DNA from: an uncultured Bacteroidota bacterium
GTDB taxonomy: Bacteria; Bacteroidota; Bacteroidia; Flavobacteriales; Flavobacteriaceae
Assembly: GCA_902586435.1 (NCBI GenBank)
Contig: CACIHJ010000001.1
Coordinates: 1-64,000, forward strand
Length of the DNA: 64,000 nt
Direction: 5' to 3'
Under the pieces are notes generated by a model, which made no database searches, was not told where the DNA came from, and worked only from the letters and a program-made list of their open reading frames with translations. Both the position numbers and the translations under genes were made by a program. Position 1 is the stretch's first letter. Every line of letters begins with the position of its first letter. Positions 8,127-25,486 of the stretch are shown here, piece by piece.

Positions 8127-8966
8127 ATGAAACAATCTTTCCTAGAGATATCATTTGCTGCTATTGCCTTTACTTTAGCTTTTTCTATTGCATATGCAAC
8201 AGGATTAGACATTGTAAAGGATGCTGTTTTATATGCTTTTATTATTCAGTGGATCTTATATATTCCGGCATATTTATTTCAAACTGAAAAGTTTTATGAT
8301 CTCTCTGGAAGTATTACTTATATTTTTGTTATCTCTTACATACTCTATTCAACATATGAACCAAATGAAATAGATTATGGAAATATTATCTTATCCTTAT
8401 TTATATCAATTTGGGCAATTAGACTTGGCAGTTTCCTTTTTATGAGAATCAAAAAAGCCGGAGAAGATAAAAGATTTAGATTAATAAAGAAATCCCCTAC
8501 TAGATTCTTCATGACATGGACTCTTCAAGGCATGTGGGTATCTGTATGCTCTGCATGTGCTCTAACAGGCATGGCAAATGGAATCATTTTAAATCCTCTA
8601 TTTTATTTTGGAGCATTTATTTTTCTTTTAGGATTTTTAGTTGAAATAATAGCAGATAATCAAAAAACAAAATTTAGAAAAGACCCAATAAATAAGGATA
8701 ATTTTATAACTACAGGCTTATGGAAATATTCTAGACATCCAAATTATTTAGGGGAAATAACTTTATGGCTTGGAGTTGCTGTAATGTCTCTATCATCTCT
8801 GTCAGGATTGCAATTAATAACATTAGTTTCTCCTATTTTTACTTATTTCCTTTTAGTATATGTTAGCGGTGTTAGAATTCTAGAAGAAACGGGAAGAAAG
8901 AAATGGGGACATCTAGACAGCTACAAAGAATATATAAAAAATACGCCTTCTCTTTTATTTAAATGA
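8127..8966 (+). CDS. DUF1295 membrane protein (steroid 5-alpha-reductase-like C-terminal fold)
   Basis: A 279-aa protein with about seven hydrophobic segments. The C-terminal motif 'SRHPNYLGEI' is the hallmark of the DUF1295/3-oxo-5-alpha-steroid 4-dehydrogenase/ICMT superfamily (PF06966), where this region binds a nucleotide or SAM cofactor. The exact reaction of bacterial DUF1295 proteins is not settled. It sits 42 bases after the homocysteine methyltransferase gene and overlaps the following 84-aa ORF by four bases (ATGA), which suggests translational coupling. Confidence 0.85.
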   Translation: MKQSFLEISFAAIAFTLAFSIAYATGLDIVKDAVLYAFIIQWILYIPAYLFQTEKFYDLSGSITYIFVISYILYSTYEPNEIDYGNIILSLFISIWAIRLGSFLFMRIKKAGEDKRFRLIKKSPTRFFMTWTLQGMWVSVCSACALTGMANGIILNPLFYFGAFIFLLGFLVEIIADNQKTKFRKDPINKDNFITTGLWKYSRHPNYLGEITLWLGVAVMSLSSLSGLQLITLVSPIFTYFLLVYVSGVRILEETGRKKWGHLDSYKEYIKNTPSLLFK

Positions 8967-9217
8967 AAACGGTTTTACTAATAATATTATTTATATGGGG
9001 AATACCTAGTACCTATTTTAGAAGTAAATTCAGAAAAATTGTATATAATACTAATGATTGGAAAATTAATATAAAGCCTTTATTTAAAAAAGAGCTCCTC
9101 GCATTATTTGGAAATATTTTTCCTGATAATAAAGAATATATAAAGACAAGAAACTATTATAGAATATACTTAATAGTATACTCTATAATATTTCTTATAT
9201 ATTTTTCAATTGATTGA
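8963..9217 (+). CDS. small membrane protein coupled to the DUF1295 gene, unknown
   Basis: An 84-aa basic protein with a hydrophobic N-terminal segment (about 3-15), a charged middle and a hydrophobic C-terminal segment (about 67-82). The start codon overlaps the stop of the DUF1295 gene as ATGA, the usual arrangement for coupled translation, which is the main support for its being real. I do not recognise a family. A partner role with the DUF1295 protein is inferred only from coupling. Confidence 0.6.
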   Translation: MKTVLLIILFIWGIPSTYFRSKFRKIVYNTNDWKINIKPLFKKELLALFGNIFPDNKEYIKTRNYYRIYLIVYSIIFLIYFSID

Positions 9218-9221
9218 ATCC

Positions 9222-9455
9222 TTAGTTAGAAGACCAAGAAAAGCAAAGCATTCCAGGAGCTGATTTTTCAGAATTTGGACATGCTTCTGTTTGATAGTTT
9301 GAGCAATTCAAACAATCTGACATTTTAGAGAATGACTCTTTTATATTATGATCATTACAAACATTATCTATTTCAACTGAAATATCATGCTTTATACATT
9401 TTAATGAATCGACAAGATTTTCACAAGTCAAACATGTATTTACTGATTTTATCAT
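9222..9455 (-). CDS. cysteine-rich small protein with a duplicated Cys4 module
   Basis: A 77-aa protein with eight cysteines at residues 8, 11, 20, 33 and 48, 51, 59, 71. The two halves repeat the same spacing: CxxC, then 8 or 7 residues, C, then 12 or 11 residues, C. The halves also begin alike ('CLTCENL' and 'CLNCSNY'). This looks like an internal duplication of a metal-binding knuckle or disulfide module. There is no signal peptide, so a cytoplasmic zinc or iron site is more likely than disulfides. I do not recognise a named family. It lies convergently beside the DUF1295 pair and downstream of the fbp operon, so an iron-related role is possible but unproved. Confidence 0.7.
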   Translation of the reverse strand: MIKSVNTCLTCENLVDSLKCIKHDISVEIDNVCNDHNIKESFSKMSDCLNCSNYQTEACPNSEKSAPGMLCFSWSSN

Positions 9456-9549
9456 AACTTAATTTTTGGTAAATATAAAATGAATTGAGTTTAGAATGAA
9501 TTTAAATTAGCTGATATACAGTAATTTAGAAGCATTTTAAATAATAAGC

Positions 9550-10524
9550 TTATTTACTATTTATGGTAAAATAGTTACTACACGTAGAATCAAATTCCAA
9601 TAAATCTTTTTTATCAAAATCTATATATACTTTTTCATTAACTGATATTGGTTGATCATGAAAAAAATGCCAAATTTGATTGTCTGCTTTTGCCCTTATT
9701 TTATATTCTTTCCCAACAAAGAGCGATTTTTCAATTATAGCTTTAAATTTTGAATTATTCGAAAGCTTCATATTTTCAGGTCTCAAATAATATGTCTTAT
9801 TATCTGTGTTTATTTGATTCAAATCACCCAAAATTTTTGCACAGTAACAGTTTACTGGGTTACAATACATCTCTATCGGTTTATCATATTGTTGAAGAAT
9901 CCCTGCTTTAAATATTAAAATTTTATCAGATATATTAAAAGTATCTCTTATATCATGAGTAACAAGTATTGTAGTGGTCTGAGTTTTTTTAATAATCCTA
10001 TGGATTTCATCTTGAATAGAAGATTTAATATTTGAGTCTAGATTACTAAATGGTTCATCTAAAAGCAGAAGATTAGGTTCTCTAACAAGAGCTCTTGCTA
10101 GACAAACTCTTTGTTGTTCTCCACCAGATAATTCATGTGGATATCTTGATTCCAGATTCTTTAAACCTGCCAATTCAATAAAATAATCAATTTTATTATG
10201 AAATTTTTCTTCTAGATTAAGAGTTATGTTTTGAATAACATCAATATGCGGAAAAAGAGGATAATCTTGAAAAACAAATCCTATTTTTCTTAGATGAGGC
10301 TTAACAAAAGTGTTATCATTATTAAGTACTTCTCCATTTAAGCTAATAACACCAGAGTTTATTCCCTCTAAACCTGCTAAACACTTTAAAAATGTTGTCT
10401 TACCTGAGCCACTCTCTCCAATAAACGATATTATTTCACCCTTATTTACAGAAAAGCTTAACTTCTCAATCAACGGAAGTTTTTTACTATAAAACTTTTG
10501 TAGGTTTTCAACTTTAAGAAACAT
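9550..10524 (-). CDS. fbpC: ferric iron ABC transporter ATP-binding protein
   Basis: ATPase of an iron(III) or spermidine-type importer. Walker A 'GESGSGKT' is at residues 36-43, the Q-loop at about Q86, the ABC signature 'LSGGEQQRV' near 132-140 and Walker B 'LLLLDEP' near 152-158, followed by the H-loop in 'VTHD'. The C-terminal ~100 residues form a TOBE-like regulatory region ('YYLRPENMKLS'). The length of 324 aa fits FbpC/PotA. Its start overlaps the end of the permease gene by 11 bases, and the order substrate-binding protein, permease, ATPase is the classical fbpABC order. Iron specificity is inferred from the FbpA-like binding protein in the same operon. Confidence 0.92.
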   Translation of the reverse strand: MFLKVENLQKFYSKKLPLIEKLSFSVNKGEIISFIGESGSGKTTFLKCLAGLEGINSGVISLNGEVLNNDNTFVKPHLRKIGFVFQDYPLFPHIDVIQNITLNLEEKFHNKIDYFIELAGLKNLESRYPHELSGGEQQRVCLARALVREPNLLLLDEPFSNLDSNIKSSIQDEIHRIIKKTQTTTILVTHDIRDTFNISDKILIFKAGILQQYDKPIEMYCNPVNCYCAKILGDLNQINTDNKTYYLRPENMKLSNNSKFKAIIEKSLFVGKEYKIRAKADNQIWHFFHDQPISVNEKVYIDFDKKDLLEFDSTCSNYFTINSK

Positions 10525-12124
10525 TGATTTGTTTATTTACAATTTTCTTCAAAAATATTAACAAAATTGAACCAATCATAACAATTGTCAATGAATATAC
10601 TGCTGATTTTGGTATCATCTCCTCTATTGCAAATTGATATGTTTGGACTGCTAGAGTATCAAAATTAAAAGGTCTTAATATTAAAGTAATTGGAAGTTCT
10701 TTCATTATATCAATAAAACATAATAAAAACGCTATTAGAATAGCCGATCTATTTATTGGAAGATGAATTTTTTTAAATAATCTAAATGGTGTTAATCCAA
10801 GATTAATTCCTGTATCATCATAAGAATTTGGATGTTTTTCAAAACTTGATTTTAAAGGTGAAATACCAACTGCCATATGTCTAATGGAATATGCATAGAT
10901 TAACAAAAAAAAGGACCCAATAAAAATATTTGAATTAATAATGTTAGGGAATGAAGTAACTAAAATTATTAGTGATAAACCAACAACTGCTCCTGGAAGA
11001 GCATAAGTCAAGGAAATCATATCACTACAAATCATAACTATTCTACTTTTAGAAACTTTTCTAAAAAACTGAAATAATACAGCAATCAATACAATTATAA
11101 TTGCAGAGACCAATGATATTGATAGTGTATTGAATATTAGATCAATTAATTTAGAGAAATTAATTCTTGCAAATTCATTAATTACATTATCAATAATAAA
11201 AAGTATAGGTATTAAAAAACCAAAAATTATTGGTATTAAGCATACCAGATGAACAACTAATCTTCTTGAATACGAAAGTGAAAAATTACTCTCCTGATTA
11301 GTATTAGCTGAATAATTAAATTGATAATTTGAATTGATATACCTTTCCAAGAAGAAAAAAAATACTACTATAACAAATAATGATACAGCAAGTAAAGATG
11401 CCGTATCTACATCTTGCATTGAATACCATGATCTAAATATTCCACTTGTAAAAGTATTTACACCAAAATATTTAACCGCTCCATATTCATTTAAAACCTC
11501 CATAATTACTAAAAATAAACCTGAGAAAATTGCAACTCTTGAAATAGGTAGAATTATCTTAAAAAATGTCTTCATCTGGGACATTCCTAGATTTCTAGAT
11601 AAATCAATATAATTTGAACCCACTAAAGAAAAAGATATTCGGCATGCGGTGTAAATATATGGATATAGAGCTAAACCCATAATTATAGCTAAAACTTCAA
11701 TTTGTAAATAATCTTGATTTAGAATATTTGAAATTTCTGGCATATGTTTTCTTGCAAAACTTTGAATAGGTCCTGTATAGCTAAGTATATCACTGTATGT
11801 AAAAGCCATTATATATGTTGGAATTGCCAGAGGAAGATAGAGTATAATATCATATAGGTTTCTGCCTTTAAATTTTGAGGTACTTATAAACCAGGCTGGA
11901 AAAATTCCAAAAATAAGAGAGAAAAAACATGTTAGTAAAACAAGATAAATTGTATTTAAAGAGTAATCAATTAAAAGATTGTCCCATAAATAGTAGAAAT
12001 TATTTAAGTCTACTTTAAAAACACTTAATAACAGAGCAAATAATGGGATTACTATAAATAAGGATAGAAAGAAAGAAGAGATGTTTACACCTCTATTATT
12101 TGTAATATTTTTTTCTACTTCCAA
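10514..12124 (-). CDS. fbpB: ferric iron ABC transporter permease, fused double-domain type
   Basis: Inner-membrane permease of 536 aa with about twelve hydrophobic segments in two homologous halves, as in FbpB/SfuB/HitB. Each half carries a coupling-loop motif: 'LGMSQMKTFFKIILP' near residue 185 and 'LGLTPFRLFKKIHLP' near 445. It overlaps fbpA at its 5' end (10 bases) and fbpC at its 3' end (11 bases), so the three are almost certainly one translationally coupled operon read toward lower coordinates. Confidence 0.93.
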   Translation of the reverse strand: MEVEKNITNNRGVNISSFFLSLFIVIPLFALLLSVFKVDLNNFYYLWDNLLIDYSLNTIYLVLLTCFFSLIFGIFPAWFISTSKFKGRNLYDIILYLPLAIPTYIMAFTYSDILSYTGPIQSFARKHMPEISNILNQDYLQIEVLAIIMGLALYPYIYTACRISFSLVGSNYIDLSRNLGMSQMKTFFKIILPISRVAIFSGLFLVIMEVLNEYGAVKYFGVNTFTSGIFRSWYSMQDVDTASLLAVSLFVIVVFFFFLERYINSNYQFNYSANTNQESNFSLSYSRRLVVHLVCLIPIIFGFLIPILFIIDNVINEFARINFSKLIDLIFNTLSISLVSAIIIVLIAVLFQFFRKVSKSRIVMICSDMISLTYALPGAVVGLSLIILVTSFPNIINSNIFIGSFFLLIYAYSIRHMAVGISPLKSSFEKHPNSYDDTGINLGLTPFRLFKKIHLPINRSAILIAFLLCFIDIMKELPITLILRPFNFDTLAVQTYQFAIEEMIPKSAVYSLTIVMIGSILLIFLKKIVNKQINVS

Positions 12125-13137
12125 CCTGTTTTATCAAATATTCTGATTGCCTCTTCCCTTTTAATACCAAGCATATTTAGATCTAGAGGATCTTTTTTAA
12201 ACTTACCCCAAGCTTGGACAATTTCATCTGGCATAATATTAGGATTCACTGAATATTCATAAGTATTATTAACGTAAGTTTTTTGGGCTTCATCAGTAGT
12301 CAAATATTTAATTAATTCAATTGCATTATTTCTATTAGGGGAATTTTTTGCAATAGCAATTCCAGAAACATTAACATGAGCGCCCCTTTCATTATTTCCT
12401 TGATTAGGGAAAAATACTCCAATTGATTTTCCTGCATTAAGCTCTTCCTCTTTTTCTGAAGACAATAAAAGGCCTATGTAATAGGAGTTAACTATTGCGA
12501 TATCTCCTTGACCAGCAGCAATTGCCTTTACTTGGTCCCTATCACTTCCCTTAGGGTCTCTTGCAAAATTTGATACAACAGCATCTGACCACTGAGTAGT
12601 TAAATCAGAACCCAGATTAGCTACAATAGAAGACATTAAGGCTTGGTTATATGAATTGGATGAGGATCTAACAAGAAGTCTTCCTTTCCATTTTTTATTT
12701 GCTAAATCTTCATATGTACTCAACTCATCTTTACTGACTCTTTCCTTACTATATACAATTATCCTAGATCTGTATGTTACTGGAATCCAATAACCATTTT
12801 TATCTAACAATTCTGAGCTAATATTTTTTGTTATATCCCTATCTTCAAATTTTTGTAAAAGACCCATTTCAGAAGCTTGCCAGAGCTTCCCAACATCAAC
12901 AGTTATAAACAAATCGGCAGGACTATTTTCTCCCTCATTTTTCATTCTTTGAATTAATTCATCTGCATTTGCCTTAACAACATTTACTTTAATACCTGTC
13001 TTCTTTTCAAAATTTGCATATTGAAGCTCATCAACATTATAATGCCTTTGACTATATATATTTATTTCATTAGAATTTTCATTTTGAGAACAACTAGATA
13101 AGATTAATGTGAACGTTATAAGTAAATATTTCTTCAT
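12115..13137 (-). CDS. fbpA: iron(III) ABC transporter substrate-binding lipoprotein
   Basis: Periplasmic ferric-binding protein of the transferrin-like FbpA family (extracellular solute-binding family 1). A lipobox 'LILSSC' places the lipidated cysteine at C16. The adjacent tyrosines of the family's iron site appear in 'NSYYIG' (Y219, Y220), and the first strand 'INIYSQRHY' is also typical. The length of 340 aa is normal. It is the first gene of the fbpABC operon. The 113-base region upstream, shared with the divergent DUF6607 gene, carries a -7 box for each direction and a 15-base palindrome. Confidence 0.93.
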   Translation of the reverse strand: MKKYLLITFTLILSSCSQNENSNEINIYSQRHYNVDELQYANFEKKTGIKVNVVKANADELIQRMKNEGENSPADLFITVDVGKLWQASEMGLLQKFEDRDITKNISSELLDKNGYWIPVTYRSRIIVYSKERVSKDELSTYEDLANKKWKGRLLVRSSSNSYNQALMSSIVANLGSDLTTQWSDAVVSNFARDPKGSDRDQVKAIAAGQGDIAIVNSYYIGLLLSSEKEEELNAGKSIGVFFPNQGNNERGAHVNVSGIAIAKNSPNRNNAIELIKYLTTDEAQKTYVNNTYEYSVNPNIMPDEIVQAWGKFKKDPLDLNMLGIKREEAIRIFDKTGWK

Positions 13138-13164: not shown

Positions 13165-13196
13165 ATGAAAAAGTGTAAGTAAAAAAAAATTATTTA

Positions 13197-13211
13197 TATT
13201 TAGTCTAAATA
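13197..13211. promoter_or_regulatory. 15-bp palindrome, candidate operator between fbpA and DUF6607
   Basis: A perfect 7-1-7 inverted repeat, TATTTAG-T-CTAAATA. It lies about where the -33 element of the DUF6607 promoter should be and upstream of the fbpA promoter, so one bound repressor could affect both. The 7-1-7 layout resembles Fur-family sites, while the TTAG/CTAA core recalls DtxR-family sites. Neither consensus is matched in full and the regulator is unknown. Confidence 0.45.
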
Positions 13212-15762: not shown

Positions 15763-17850
15763 TTATAGTTTTAAATTAAATCTTCCATATAAAATCCTTC
15801 CGGGAAGATTTGAAATATTTGAAGGATCAGTATAGTCAAGTAAGTTGTCTATACCAAAATTTATTGTTATTGATCTATTTATTTTCTTTGAAGCGGCTAT
15901 ATCTAGGTCAATATATCCTTTAACAAGATCATCATAATTGTCAAGAAAATCATTTCCATTAGAGTCAAATAAGCCATATTTACTTCTATATTTTGATCTT
16001 AAATTAAACTTTAGATCATTTTTTGCTTCAAGAAATATCTTTAAATTAAAGGTGTGCTTTGATCTGTTGTAAAGACCAAAATAATCTTTAGGTTGTAATA
16101 CAAAAGACGGAGAATTTGAAGATTTTCTTGCAAAAACTTCCCCATTATTGATTGAGGTTACAATATCTTTGTCTTTTGCCTCAAGATATTGGTAGCCAAT
16201 TATAAAATTTAATTTTTCATTTGGTCTATAATTGAATGTAGATTCAAACCCTTGGGTATAAACTTTGTTTAAGTTAAAATAGCTAAACAAATTTTGTCCA
16301 TTAATTTTATTAGCGATAACCCTATAGTCAATTAGATCATTAATATCATTTCTAAATAGGTTAATTTCTATTTTTAATTGATTAGAAGGATTATAGTTTA
16401 ATCCTAGATTTAAGCTTAATGAAGTTTCAGGTTTTAGTTTTTGATTAAATTCATTTAAAGGAACAATCAAATTTGCAATTTGATTATTTTCAGTTAATTT
16501 AGAAATAACATCAATTACAACATTGTGGCCCACCACTGAATACCCTACTGTAGAATTTGTGAAATTAAAGAATAACTGTCTAAAATCAGGTGCCTTAAAA
16601 CCTTTCCCTATTGATGATTTTAAGGAGACATCCTTAAATATTTTAGTTCTGAAAGCTATCCTAGGGCTGATTTGAGATTTATAATTATTATAATTATCAT
16701 ATCTAGCTCCAATTATATAGTTTGAATTCTTATCAGTAAAACCTTCAAATTGAGCAAATATATTGACAGAAGACTGTGTAATGTTGTTTTTATAAAAATT
16801 ATTTCTACTTAATGATTCGTCTAAATATCCTAGTCCTAAAATGAACTTATTCTGAATTCCAAAATCAACTATTCCCCTTACTTCAGATTTAATTAAGAAC
16901 TGATCAAAATAACTTTCCTCTTCTTCAATACCTCCAGAAGAAATATCTTCTTCAGCATTATATGAGGTGAAATATATATCAGACTCAATATTAAAATTAT
17001 CAGTAATTTTCAAACCTAATTTAGAGTTTGAACTCCATTCTGAAGTGTTATTATCTCCAAATAAATTTTCATTTACTTTAAAACTTTGCTTTTCATCAAA
17101 AATTCTAGCAGAAGAAAAAAATGAAAAATTGTTTTTTGAAAAAGAATATTTAATAAAACCTGTATAATTATTATAAGGATCTACTGTATTAAGGTTATCT
17201 GTTTTATCGAGGTCATAGCCATCAGTAGAATAGGAATTAACGAATATATTAAACTTTTTTCCATCTTTAGTTATCAGTCCAGTTGAAAAATTTATATCAT
17301 TTGTATTGTATGAAGCAAGTTTATAATCAATGTTTAATGGAAGAGAATCTTTTATTTCTGATGAAATAATATTAACTACTCCTCCTAGTGCCTCTGAACC
17401 ATATAAACTAGAAGAGCTTCCATTTATGACCTCAATTTGTTCAATATTTCCAATTGCAATTCTATTTAAATCTAAGGTTCCAGATTGCCTGCCAATTAGA
17501 GGAAGGCCATCAATTAGAATTAATATGTATTCAGAATCTAATCCTTGAATTTGGATTCCTTCTCCACCTCCAAAATCAGGCACTATAATAATACCTGTTT
17601 GTTCATCTAAAACATCTTTAAGTCTACTAGAATTTATTTCATCTATTTCATTTTTAGAAATTAGCTTAGCAGGTAATGGAAGTGACGATAATTGACGCTT
17701 AGTTTTAGTTCCTGTTACTATAACTTCTTCTAATGATTTTGTTGAAATTGAATCATTAACGACTTGTGCTGAACTTAAATAACTTGATAATATAAATGTT
17801 ATTAAGAAAAGGCGTGAACTAATTTTTATATAATGTTTTATTAAACTCAA
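15763..17850 (-). CDS. hmuR: TonB-dependent outer-membrane receptor, heme (HmuR) type
   Basis: A 695-aa receptor with a signal peptide ('SSYLSSAQ'), a TonB-box-like stretch 'LEEVIVTGTKTKRQ', a plug domain ('LKDVLDEQTGIIIVPDFG', 'ILIDGLPLIGR', 'GSSSSLYGSEALGGVVNII') and a 22-strand-type barrel ending in 'LPGRILYGRFNLKL'. It lacks the N-terminal CarboxypepD_reg domain of SusC proteins, so it is a siderophore/heme/vitamin-type receptor. The adjacent hmuY gene points to heme. A perfect -7 box lies upstream and the pair ends at a strong hairpin. Confidence 0.88.
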   Translation of the reverse strand: MSLIKHYIKISSRLFLITFILSSYLSSAQVVNDSISTKSLEEVIVTGTKTKRQLSSLPLPAKLISKNEIDEINSSRLKDVLDEQTGIIIVPDFGGGEGIQIQGLDSEYILILIDGLPLIGRQSGTLDLNRIAIGNIEQIEVINGSSSSLYGSEALGGVVNIISSEIKDSLPLNIDYKLASYNTNDINFSTGLITKDGKKFNIFVNSYSTDGYDLDKTDNLNTVDPYNNYTGFIKYSFSKNNFSFFSSARIFDEKQSFKVNENLFGDNNTSEWSSNSKLGLKITDNFNIESDIYFTSYNAEEDISSGGIEEEESYFDQFLIKSEVRGIVDFGIQNKFILGLGYLDESLSRNNFYKNNITQSSVNIFAQFEGFTDKNSNYIIGARYDNYNNYKSQISPRIAFRTKIFKDVSLKSSIGKGFKAPDFRQLFFNFTNSTVGYSVVGHNVVIDVISKLTENNQIANLIVPLNEFNQKLKPETSLSLNLGLNYNPSNQLKIEINLFRNDINDLIDYRVIANKINGQNLFSYFNLNKVYTQGFESTFNYRPNEKLNFIIGYQYLEAKDKDIVTSINNGEVFARKSSNSPSFVLQPKDYFGLYNRSKHTFNLKIFLEAKNDLKFNLRSKYRSKYGLFDSNGNDFLDNYDDLVKGYIDLDIAASKKINRSITINFGIDNLLDYTDPSNISNLPGRILYGRFNLKL

Positions 17851-18004: not shown

Positions 18005-18400
18005 TTAGTAAATGAACTTGCCTTTTTTAATTTCTATTGTGGGGCAGGACTGGTACTTTCCAAATAGAATATATCTTGTTTTTGCAACTATATCATAAAA
18101 GAAATTTGATAAAAATAAAGGGCAGATATTTAAAATAATTCTAAAAAATAAAAATTTTTTCAACCTATTAAGTATATGTCTTACAGCATTACTCTTGTAG
18201 ATAATTTTACCATCTATTTGGATTACTGCAACTGAGTTGTTTTTTTTTAAATCTGGAAATTTTTCTTTGATAAATTCACTATCAAGATTAGAAAATAGAA
18301 ACAAGTCATTTTCATCTCTTTTTATTACCCATCTGATGATGTTATTACATAAGACACATAGTCCGTCATAAATAATAATTTCTTTTGTCAATGTTCTCAT
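18005..18400 (-). CDS. DCC-family (DUF393) thiol-disulfide oxidoreductase-like protein
   Basis: A 131-aa protein beginning 'IIIYDGLCVLCNNIIRWVI', the DxxCxxC signature of the DCC/DUF393 family (PF04134), proposed to have a thioredoxin-like redox role. Further family features are 'FSNLDSEFIKEKFP', 'KIIYKSNAVRHIL' and the C-terminal 'YDIVAKTRYILFGK'. It is the last gene of a minus-strand run, 14 bases after the beta-barrel protein. The substrate is unknown. Confidence 0.87.
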   Translation of the reverse strand: MRTLTKEIIIYDGLCVLCNNIIRWVIKRDENDLFLFSNLDSEFIKEKFPDLKKNNSVAVIQIDGKIIYKSNAVRHILNRLKKFLFFRIILNICPLFLSNFFYDIVAKTRYILFGKYQSCPTIEIKKGKFIY

Positions 18401-23443: not shown

Positions 23444-25486
23444 TTATTCGAAAAAATTCCATACAACTCCAAATCTAACAGATAAATCTCTATATGGATT
23501 AAATGGATCTGAATAATAATCATATCCTGTAGAAGATGAATTTAAATGTTCAACCTTTATAAAAATTCTGGTTTGTTGAATTGTTGCATTAACAAAAAAA
23601 TCAAACCTTGGATATTCTCCAATTTCTTTATAATTCTGTGTTACAAATTCTGACAAAAGAGGATTATAATAGTCAGCATAGAACTTGGTGAAAAAATTAA
23701 ATGTAACACCTGTCTGAAGAAATAAAGAATTATTAAACAAATCTGTAGAATATAATAATGTATTTCTTGTTACCCATTCAGGAACATTCAAAGTATATAG
23801 TTCATTAAATTCTAATTCATTTTGTTCCTTTTTCTGATATTGAGCAGTATTTATAAATGCAAACTTTCCTATTCTGTTATGATTCTCTAACTTGATTTTA
23901 TAATATTTAATTTGACCTGAAGCCTGATAAGGCCTAGCTATTCTTTTTAAATCCATTTCCCCTTGTAAAGCATTTGTGGTCTCTTTGAAATAAGTATAAT
24001 TATCAATTATAAAATAATCAGCTGAAATCTTTATCAAATCTTTGTATGATATCTTAAAATGCGCATTAGCAGTCTTTTGATTATTTAAGTCTTGATTATA
24101 CCAGTTATAATTATTATAAATACTTCTGAATAACGTGAAATTAAAGTTTGGAGATCTACTCGAGTTTGATATTTCTATGTCTGTTTTTATATTTTTTAAA
24201 GGAATAGCATTAACTCCAAATTTTAAATAATTAGAAGCAAATTCATCTTTACTAGAGTTATTGAATTCTAGATTTAAGTTAAGTATTGAAGTTAATTTAT
24301 TCCATCTAATGTTAAGATTTGTTTGATTGTTTTCAAGCTTCAATTCCAAGTCCGATAAAGCTCCGTCATAATCATCATAAGAATTTTGCCATTTAATTAA
24401 ACTTAAACCTATATTAAAGCTCCCAAGTTTCTCTAGATCTGATTCTAAATAGATTTTGTTTTCCTGAAAATATAACCTTGATCTATCCATTACAGTTCCA
24501 TCAAGCTTATCACCAAAAATGAAAGAAGTTGTAGACTGGTCTATATATTCAATTTTCTTATATTCATGAGTGAATTGATAACCAATCGAAAGCAAGCTTT
24601 TTTCTTTATCTCCAATTATTTTTCTTTTAAAATTTGAATAAACCCTTTTTGAATAAAGACTACTCTCAGCAAAAACCCATGCACCAAGTCTTGACCTATC
24701 AAGATAGCCATCATATTCAATCATTTCATAACTTCCGTCTTCGTTAATTATTTGATCTCCTTTCTCATCAAGAACAAAATAATTTGTGGCTTGTTCAAAA
24801 AAGTATATAGAGTCAGGATCTAGACCTGCACTCTCCTGATTGAAAATATTTTGTGAGGTAAAATGTAATCTCCAAGTATTTTTTGTGTTTTCTGAAATAT
24901 AATTTGATGAAAATCTAAATTGGTTTCCTCTAGATCTAGTACTTTGATATTTCCCCAAAGATTTATATCCTTTATGGGCCAATGTAAAGTTATACTCAGG
25001 TGTTAAGTTTAACGATACTAAAGCATCTAATATTTGACCTTGTTCAAATGTTGATTTAGCAAATAATTCCGTATAGGGTGTGGGAATATTAAAATAAGGA
25101 ATGTCTTCTATTTCAAAATAAGAAAAATGTTTTCCCCTAGCACCGAATTGTGGTAATTTAAATTCATCATTAAAATTATAGCCAAGTTTATTATAGGTAT
25201 GACCAACATTGGCAAAAGATAATAGCTCAAAATCATCCTCTCTAATAAAGTTAAATTTATAATCTTTATAAATAGTTAGGGTAGTATCTACACTTTTCTC
25301 TATACCATTGGAAAAGAAATATTTATAATCAGTTATAGGTATTGAGTCCTTTTTTTCAGATTTCTTTTCAGTTTCTTGTTTTAATTGTTCTTTACCTCTA
25401 AGAACTTCTTCATCTGTCATTTCATCTTGAGAAAATATTATTAATGGAGATGAAAAAAAAATTAGAACAAGAAAAAATCTATTCAT
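23444..25486 (-). CDS. putative outer-membrane porin (Porin_10 family)
   Basis: A 680-aa protein with a signal peptide ending 'LIIFSQ' and a highly charged Lys/Glu stretch after it. The region 'FSFANVGHTYNKLGY'-like ('LLSFANVGHTYNKLGYNF'), followed by 'YFEIEDIPYFNIPTPYTEL', is typical of the Bacteroidota Porin_10 family (PF14121). The remainder alternates aromatic and polar residues and ends 'DLSVRFGVVWNFFE' with a C-terminal aromatic, as expected for an outer-membrane barrel. The substrate is unknown. It is the first gene of a long minus-strand run and is divergent from rnhB. Confidence 0.8.
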   Translation of the reverse strand: MNRFFLVLIFFSSPLIIFSQDEMTDEEVLRGKEQLKQETEKKSEKKDSIPITDYKYFFSNGIEKSVDTTLTIYKDYKFNFIREDDFELLSFANVGHTYNKLGYNFNDEFKLPQFGARGKHFSYFEIEDIPYFNIPTPYTELFAKSTFEQGQILDALVSLNLTPEYNFTLAHKGYKSLGKYQSTRSRGNQFRFSSNYISENTKNTWRLHFTSQNIFNQESAGLDPDSIYFFEQATNYFVLDEKGDQIINEDGSYEMIEYDGYLDRSRLGAWVFAESSLYSKRVYSNFKRKIIGDKEKSLLSIGYQFTHEYKKIEYIDQSTTSFIFGDKLDGTVMDRSRLYFQENKIYLESDLEKLGSFNIGLSLIKWQNSYDDYDGALSDLELKLENNQTNLNIRWNKLTSILNLNLEFNNSSKDEFASNYLKFGVNAIPLKNIKTDIEISNSSRSPNFNFTLFRSIYNNYNWYNQDLNNQKTANAHFKISYKDLIKISADYFIIDNYTYFKETTNALQGEMDLKRIARPYQASGQIKYYKIKLENHNRIGKFAFINTAQYQKKEQNELEFNELYTLNVPEWVTRNTLLYSTDLFNNSLFLQTGVTFNFFTKFYADYYNPLLSEFVTQNYKEIGEYPRFDFFVNATIQQTRIFIKVEHLNSSSTGYDYYSDPFNPYRDLSVRFGVVWNFFE

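Follow-up and report, generated by a model that had tools for sequence, protein, structure and literature searches.

A 77-residue protein made of two four-cysteine modules is encoded beside ferric-iron-type importer genes in the DNA of an uncultured Flavobacteriaceae bacterium (the window, meaning the whole 64,000-nucleotide stretch that was analysed). This two-module cysteine protein is real, conserved and so far unnamed. The operator-like sites ahead of the gene indicate that it is probably under Fur control and on in iron starvation, and the arrangement of its eight cysteines suggests that they probably hold two metal or iron-sulfur centres. The gene and its modules are as follows.

9222..9455, minus strand: two-module cysteine protein, 77 aa, with an ATG start, stop codon included
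9357..9434, minus strand: module 1, C8-x2-C11-x8-C20-x12-C33, with H23, and H36 just past it, as CxxH in the window clade; occurs alone in 40-aa congeners
9234..9314, minus strand: module 2, C48-x2-C51-x7-C59-x11-C71, plus the conserved W74 (from sequence and alignment)

The protein and its family

The 77-residue frame reads from 9455 to 9222 on the minus strand; the plus-strand reading of 9222-9455 has many stops. A preliminary description of this DNA had reported cysteine spacings of CxxC-x8-C-x12-C and CxxC-x7-C-x11-C, with C-L-x-C at the start of both sets, and the protein bears out the spacings and the shared opening alike. A convergent 84-residue ORF (8963-9217) meets the gene on its other side. 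Among the aligned sequences, 7-8 residues separate the start codon from the first cysteine, which leaves no room for an export leader, and a cytosolic protein is the best reading.

Full-length homologues that keep the cysteines occur in many genera, so the frame, as first proposed, is a real gene, and this conservation rules out a chance ORF. All eight cysteines and one tryptophan are kept in 60/60 distinct full-length aligned sequences, a set gathered by a pattern that demands the cysteines, and again in 14/14 loci fetched later. One diverged, decaying copy (locus L097 of genome G306, 1501-1734), with its second cysteine changed to phenylalanine and a stop at the conserved tryptophan codon, was found by HMM outside the cysteine pattern and is therefore absent from the 60. 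Alignment A2 takes in 55 of the 60, leaving out three sequences with unread residues and two near-duplicates.

A single-sequence search returned nine named relatives at 63-76% identity, from flavobacterial or Bacteroidetes assemblies. Searched at the level of the taxonomic family, 46/199 genomes matched at E<=0.1; those taken further had E below about 1e-7, plus two weaker ones, and only G079 lay above 5e-4. A module 1 profile found matches in 66/397 genomes of the same family, spread over 53/237 genera. Matches came from 24/296 genomes at the level of the order and from 10/395 at the level of the phylum, two of the latter chance-like when read, and two other taxonomic families gave 14/52 and 3/92. 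The distribution across Bacteroidota is patchy.

The family could not be named from the window sequence at first, and no Pfam or NCBIfam model claims the two-module protein: neither collection gave a match above cut-off for it or its members. A PDB sequence search (P0001, A1, A2) returned chance-level matches only, so a named family was set aside. A phage gene was likewise rejected, as three phage records matched and the best E was only 2. The passages of PMC9478572, PMC5609570, PMC12358834 and PMC7760384 covered here make no mention of a two-module cysteine family.

What had been described as a clear internal duplication is supported, but modestly. The profile score of half 1 against half 2 is 15.3, a value equalled by 4/200 column shuffles with the cysteines fixed, and the alignment spans only 13 columns, around CxxC.

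The preliminary description held that homologues lacking one set of cysteines would speak against its reading, and part of this was found. The first set alone is carried by 15 of the 24 other genomes of the genus, as a 40-residue protein (41 in L014) ending at a stop, and no second module appears when roughly 360 bases from the start of these genes are read in all three frames. Of the remaining nine congeners, G003 keeps module 2 as a decayed remnant and eight are without a match, though most of the assemblies are incomplete. Module 1 also stands alone in two other genera, G091 and G079, both checked by reading, and apparently in G1049, judged from frame length only. Among the module 1 profile matches, 4/66 frames are of 53 residues or fewer and 62/66 of at least 76. 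Its occurrence alone in 15/24 congeners and at least two other genera makes module 1 a separable unit, and the motif is not meaningless.

The G003 remnant (L082, about 8134-8190, minus strand) has several gaps relative to the window gene. Its contig is without fbp clusters, yet two of the window's neighbours are present (L082 1195-2922).

Iron-gene neighbourhoods and Fur-box-like operators

Upstream of the 77-residue gene lie the importer genes and several operator-like sites.

9550..10524, minus strand: FbpC-like ATPase (ABC transporter) of the neighbouring ferric-iron-type importer (PF00005)
10514..12124, minus strand: FbpB-like permease (PF00528)
12115..13137, minus strand: FbpA-like solute-binding lipoprotein (PF13416 and others)
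9489..9507, strand not given: proximal Fur-box-like operator, about -33 from the start codon, 15/18 positions
9524..9542, strand not given: distal Fur-box-like operator, about -68 from the start codon, 16/18 positions
13192..13210, strand not given: Fur-box-like operator before fbpA, a positive control, 3 mismatches

The name Fbp rests here on gene arrangement and on the first naming of these genes, not on an iron-specificity profile. The 77-residue gene had been placed directly downstream of the fbp operon, on the same strand and 95 bases away. Strand and adjacency hold, with an actual gap of 94 bases (9456-9549), but this gap contains the gene's own pair of Fur-box-like operators, which makes it unlikely that the gene is just the last one of the fbp operon.

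We opened 75 stretches, 71 of which contain the gene pattern; L082, L083, L084 and L133 are without it and were left out. The fbpC gene is directly upstream on the same strand in 23/71 loci, namely 13 two-module loci (the window, L021-L029, L058, L060 and L062) and all 10 one-module loci opened. DUF4856, imelysin and HTTM genes and a TonB receptor of one cluster occur within 9 kb in 13 loci, 11 of them without fbpA/B. In 23 loci guaB is nearby, and a PepSY_TM gene is directly upstream in two, L066 and L142. At least one recognised iron-gene cluster falls within 9 kb in 40/71 loci and none in 31/71, a group that counts L028, whose truncated stretch retains fbpC. Blast clusters served to recognise these iron genes, with Pfam checks on a few members, and the count leaves out receptors of other clusters and a periplasmic-binding-protein gene of L139. 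Genes for guaB and TonB are neighbours in both the fbp and the imelysin/TonB contexts, which may go back to a single ancestral locus and are therefore not counted as independent.

A place as the last gene of the fbp operon only was rejected because the gene has its own operator-like sites and in 48/71 loci does not stand directly behind fbpC. The same 48 loci bear on another account, in which the protein would be an iron buffer, chaperone or sensor, its cysteines binding Fe(II) or an assembling cluster and passing it on, or reporting iron status to the importer. FeoC, for comparison, has been proposed to play such a part for FeoB. Iron-starvation-type operators before the gene and its place directly beside an ABC ATPase gene in 23/71 loci would fit such a role, but its separation from fbpC in most loci makes a dedicated importer subunit unlikely, and we hold the account as a whole to be improbable.

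On the downstream side, all 10 one-module loci opened (L078-L081, L146-L151) have a gene of one cluster directly behind the module gene on the same strand. In L078 this gene encodes a histidine kinase, judged by Pfam; the window and L021 have no such gene there. A few genes further on, these one-module loci have members of a cluster that we take to be of NrdB type.

We scanned the 150 bases before each gene with the Riemerella Fur box (PMC5609570) as consensus, scoring out of 18. A score of at least 14/18 was reached by 63/71 family-gene upstreams, with 8/71 loci below it, against 89/829 other upstreams in the same loci, a comparison set that includes the positive controls fbpA and DUF4856. 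These controls scored 15-18 in 34/35 cases (fbpA 17/17 and DUF4856 17/18 at 15 or above). A matrix made only from the 11 boxes published in Table 5 of PMC5609570 gave the family genes a mean of 14.1, versus 2.6 for 757 other upstreams. By this matrix p<=0.05 against dinucleotide shuffles held in 60/71 loci; these include 26 of the 31 that have no recognised iron-gene cluster inside 9 kb.

Relatives are not independent, so we also counted on 41 non-redundant loci (less than 75% protein identity). Here 33/41 scored at least 14/18, with 1.3 expected from shuffles, and 17/41 had paired sites 28-60 bases apart, with 0.3 expected. Among 14 loci fetched later, 11 scored at least 14 (0.34 expected) and 8 had pairs (0.05 expected); these loci are partly kin to the earlier ones, as the L177 and L197 proteins are identical to used ones, L181 and L182 are near-identical to each other and several share earlier genera. 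Five one-module genes are each preceded by two Fur-box-like sites.

The window holds 8 Fur-box matches with at most three mismatches, against 1.03 expected, and two of them lie in the 94-base gap. In the 1.0-Mb assembly three sites have two mismatches or fewer, and the distal operator (9524..9542) is one of them. Enrichment of the motif genome-wide is mild, at 17 sites versus 10 for the reversed pattern.

Several of the other sites can be placed. Of the remaining two with two mismatches or fewer in the assembly, one, a two-mismatch site at 18128-18146, is inside a small ORF (18005-18400), about 280 bases ahead of a TonB receptor gene (15763-17850). The other, also with two mismatches, at C18:4261-4279 of G000 (L156), is just ahead of an ORF that we take to be NrdB; the contig ends inside this ORF. 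A three-mismatch site at 9747-9765 lies within the FbpC-like ORF. Two more, at 24103-24121 and 25255-25273, fall inside a single minus-strand ORF of about 680 residues and are thus probably chance matches or not operators of a start.

Like the mild genome-wide enrichment, it counts against Fur control that no Fur-family gene was found in the window's own assembly, which is 84% complete, whereas 22/25 genomes of the genus have one. PerR, Zur and other relatives of Fur fall under the same model. In Riemerella, according to passages of PMC5609570, Fur boxes are listed and Fur binding was shown at four promoters, and iron restriction induces a TonB receptor, a gamma-carboxylase (HTTM-type), imelysin and hypothetical neighbours. 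The same passages report that iron still affects the TonB/imelysin genes in a fur deletion. That Fur binds the sites before the two-module gene is an inference.

Nature of the metal centres

Two metal sites, or a two-lobed iron or zinc protein, had been suggested from the window sequence. This is supported in part: the protein is small and conserved, has two four-cysteine sets that very plausibly form two metal or iron-sulfur sites, and is encoded next to an iron-type transporter. We tentatively favour a cytosolic, iron-starvation-induced protein with two HiPIP-like [4Fe-4S] lobes that transfers electrons in iron assimilation, and give this something close to an even chance. In its favour, both Foldseek chains of the better structural model are iron-sulfur proteins; against it, the commonest weak Pfam matches of the family are zinc-type.

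A first AlphaFold model of the window protein reached pLDDT 43.8, and a fold search with it returned no chain. The second, better model reached 56.8, and Foldseek returned two chains only, the HiPIP 1ISU (E 3.3, probability 0.16) and a ferredoxin (E 8.9, probability 0.01). VIA-align placed residues 1-41 of this model (pLDDT 57) on 1ISU with Z 3.9, 1.7 A over 41 residues and 27% identity; a Z under 8 may reflect merely a common arrangement.

HiPIPs have a CxxC, then two single cysteines, with an aromatic residue three positions past the last cysteine, and they are exported to the periplasm. The window protein resembles 1ISU, the best fold match of the better model, in the CxxC followed by two single cysteines and, in module 2, in the aromatic at the last cysteine +3. 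That position is tryptophan in 60/60 sequences in module 2; in module 1 it is phenylalanine in 30, histidine in 28 (the window protein among them) and tyrosine in 2. It differs from HiPIP in having two lobes of about 38 residues per chain, no room for an export signal, iron-starvation-type operators before its gene and no sequence match to PF01355. This model was absent from the window protein's 3 Pfam matches at E<=10 and from the 12 Pfam families that 55 members hit at E<=0.05, and at E<=10 it gave no match in the window's own genome. Of 200 cysteine-fixed shuffles, 53 equalled the profile score against HiPIP. The modelled likeness to HiPIP is a lead, not a membership.

The main rival to the iron-sulfur reading is zinc: a miniprotein with one Zn(Cys)4 or Zn(Cys3His) knuckle per module, serving in the response to iron starvation as a Fur-controlled adaptor or regulator that binds protein or nucleic acid and has no redox role. 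Such a small cytosolic protein would need no iron when iron is scarce, and the CxxC pairs, joined in the window clade by CxxH pairs, suit it. So do the commonest weak Pfam matches among the 55 members, which are Prok-RING_2 (6/55, best E 0.012) and the EHMT1-2 Cys-rich region (3/55, best E 0.0077), along with zf-FCS in 1/55. However, these matches touch few members, and the one with scores shown lies below the Pfam cut-off (15.6 versus 22.4 bits). Only the cysteines are universal. H23 is kept in 58/60 sequences and is glutamine in 2/60, and H36 is histidine in 28/60, phenylalanine in 30/60 and tyrosine in 2/60, which argues against histidines as universal ligands and rules out obligatory ones. 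With iron-sulfur proteins as the sole two Foldseek matches, we judge zinc possible but rather doubtful.

Each module could instead hold a single Fe(Cys)4 site and act as a rubredoxin-like electron carrier. Passages of PMC12358834 give a precedent in MASS-delta, whose CX2CXnCXnC motif was expected to bind [4Fe-4S] and holds one Fe in a rubredoxin-like fold. There the ligands are Cys3, Cys6, Cys32 and Cys35, whereas the third and fourth cysteines of each module here are single, with no second CxxC. We consider a rubredoxin-like site very unlikely.

A further comparison is with the small subunit HpdC of 4-hydroxyphenylacetate decarboxylase (NF033716; PDB 2Y8N/2YAJ). HpdC has 86 residues, and one of its cluster ligands is a histidine; it differs in being a subunit of an anaerobic glycyl radical enzyme. 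Inspection by eye of those neighbours for which sequences were read revealed no glycyl radical enzyme. Passages of PMC12358834 describe HpdC as holding two [4Fe-4S] clusters in a HiPIP-like fold of a single chain, and group HiPIP 1ISU with glycyl radical enzyme accessory subunits, several with CX2CXnCXnC. The HpdC profile score was equalled by 1/200 cysteine-fixed shuffles, with only 14 columns aligned, and NF033716 was matched by 1/35 members at E 0.13, not above cut-off. As another profile run aligned a different part (probability 5%), homology is not claimed.

A candidate role in iron assimilation

When iron is plentiful, Fur would occupy a single operator or a pair of them, some 33 and 68 bases upstream of the start codon, and so repress the gene. 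In iron starvation the gene would be expressed along with a ferric-iron importer, which is FbpABC here and, in other genera, a TonB/imelysin system. Each module would then take up one metal centre, most likely as a small HiPIP-like [4Fe-4S] lobe, making the 77-residue protein a two-cluster electron carrier or a cluster-based partner. Much as Bfd does, the carrier may help the cell to reduce Fe(III), whether newly imported or from stores, to Fe(II) that it can use. We infer the metal identity ([4Fe-4S] rather than Zn or a single Fe), the electron transfer and the partner.

An iron-containing protein made in iron starvation is counter-intuitive, and Bfd is, by analogy, a precedent. Bfd itself is induced by iron starvation. 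Like the proposed carrier, it is a very small iron-sulfur electron donor tied to iron supply; it differs in having one [2Fe-2S] site, where the 77-residue protein has eight cysteines in two repeats. The Bfd model (Fer2_BFD, PF04324) was absent from the window protein's matches at E<=10 and from the 12 families of the 55 members at E<=0.05. In P. aeruginosa, as passages of PMC7760384 describe, electrons handed over by the [2Fe-2S] cluster of Bfd bring about the release of Fe(II) from BfrB.

A bolder extension, which we think unlikely as a whole, is that Bacteroidota have their own cytosolic, Fur-controlled, two-cluster HiPIP-like carrier that plays Bfd's part, giving electrons to Fe(III) from importers or ferritin, and that genome-reduced marine lineages have cut it to a dimeric 40-residue module. 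If true, this single module would be among the smallest natural iron-sulfur proteins.

To our knowledge, the cytosolic reduction and distribution of iron after uptake is little described in Bacteroidota. For iron handling in this phylum, an eight-cysteine protein that no family model describes and that Fur probably controls offers a concrete candidate, open to expression, metal analysis and gene deletion in laboratory strains. An operator scan can yield a lead on function for miniproteins that sequence and fold searches leave unnamed. The 40-residue one-module forms may offer a natural minimal metalloprotein.
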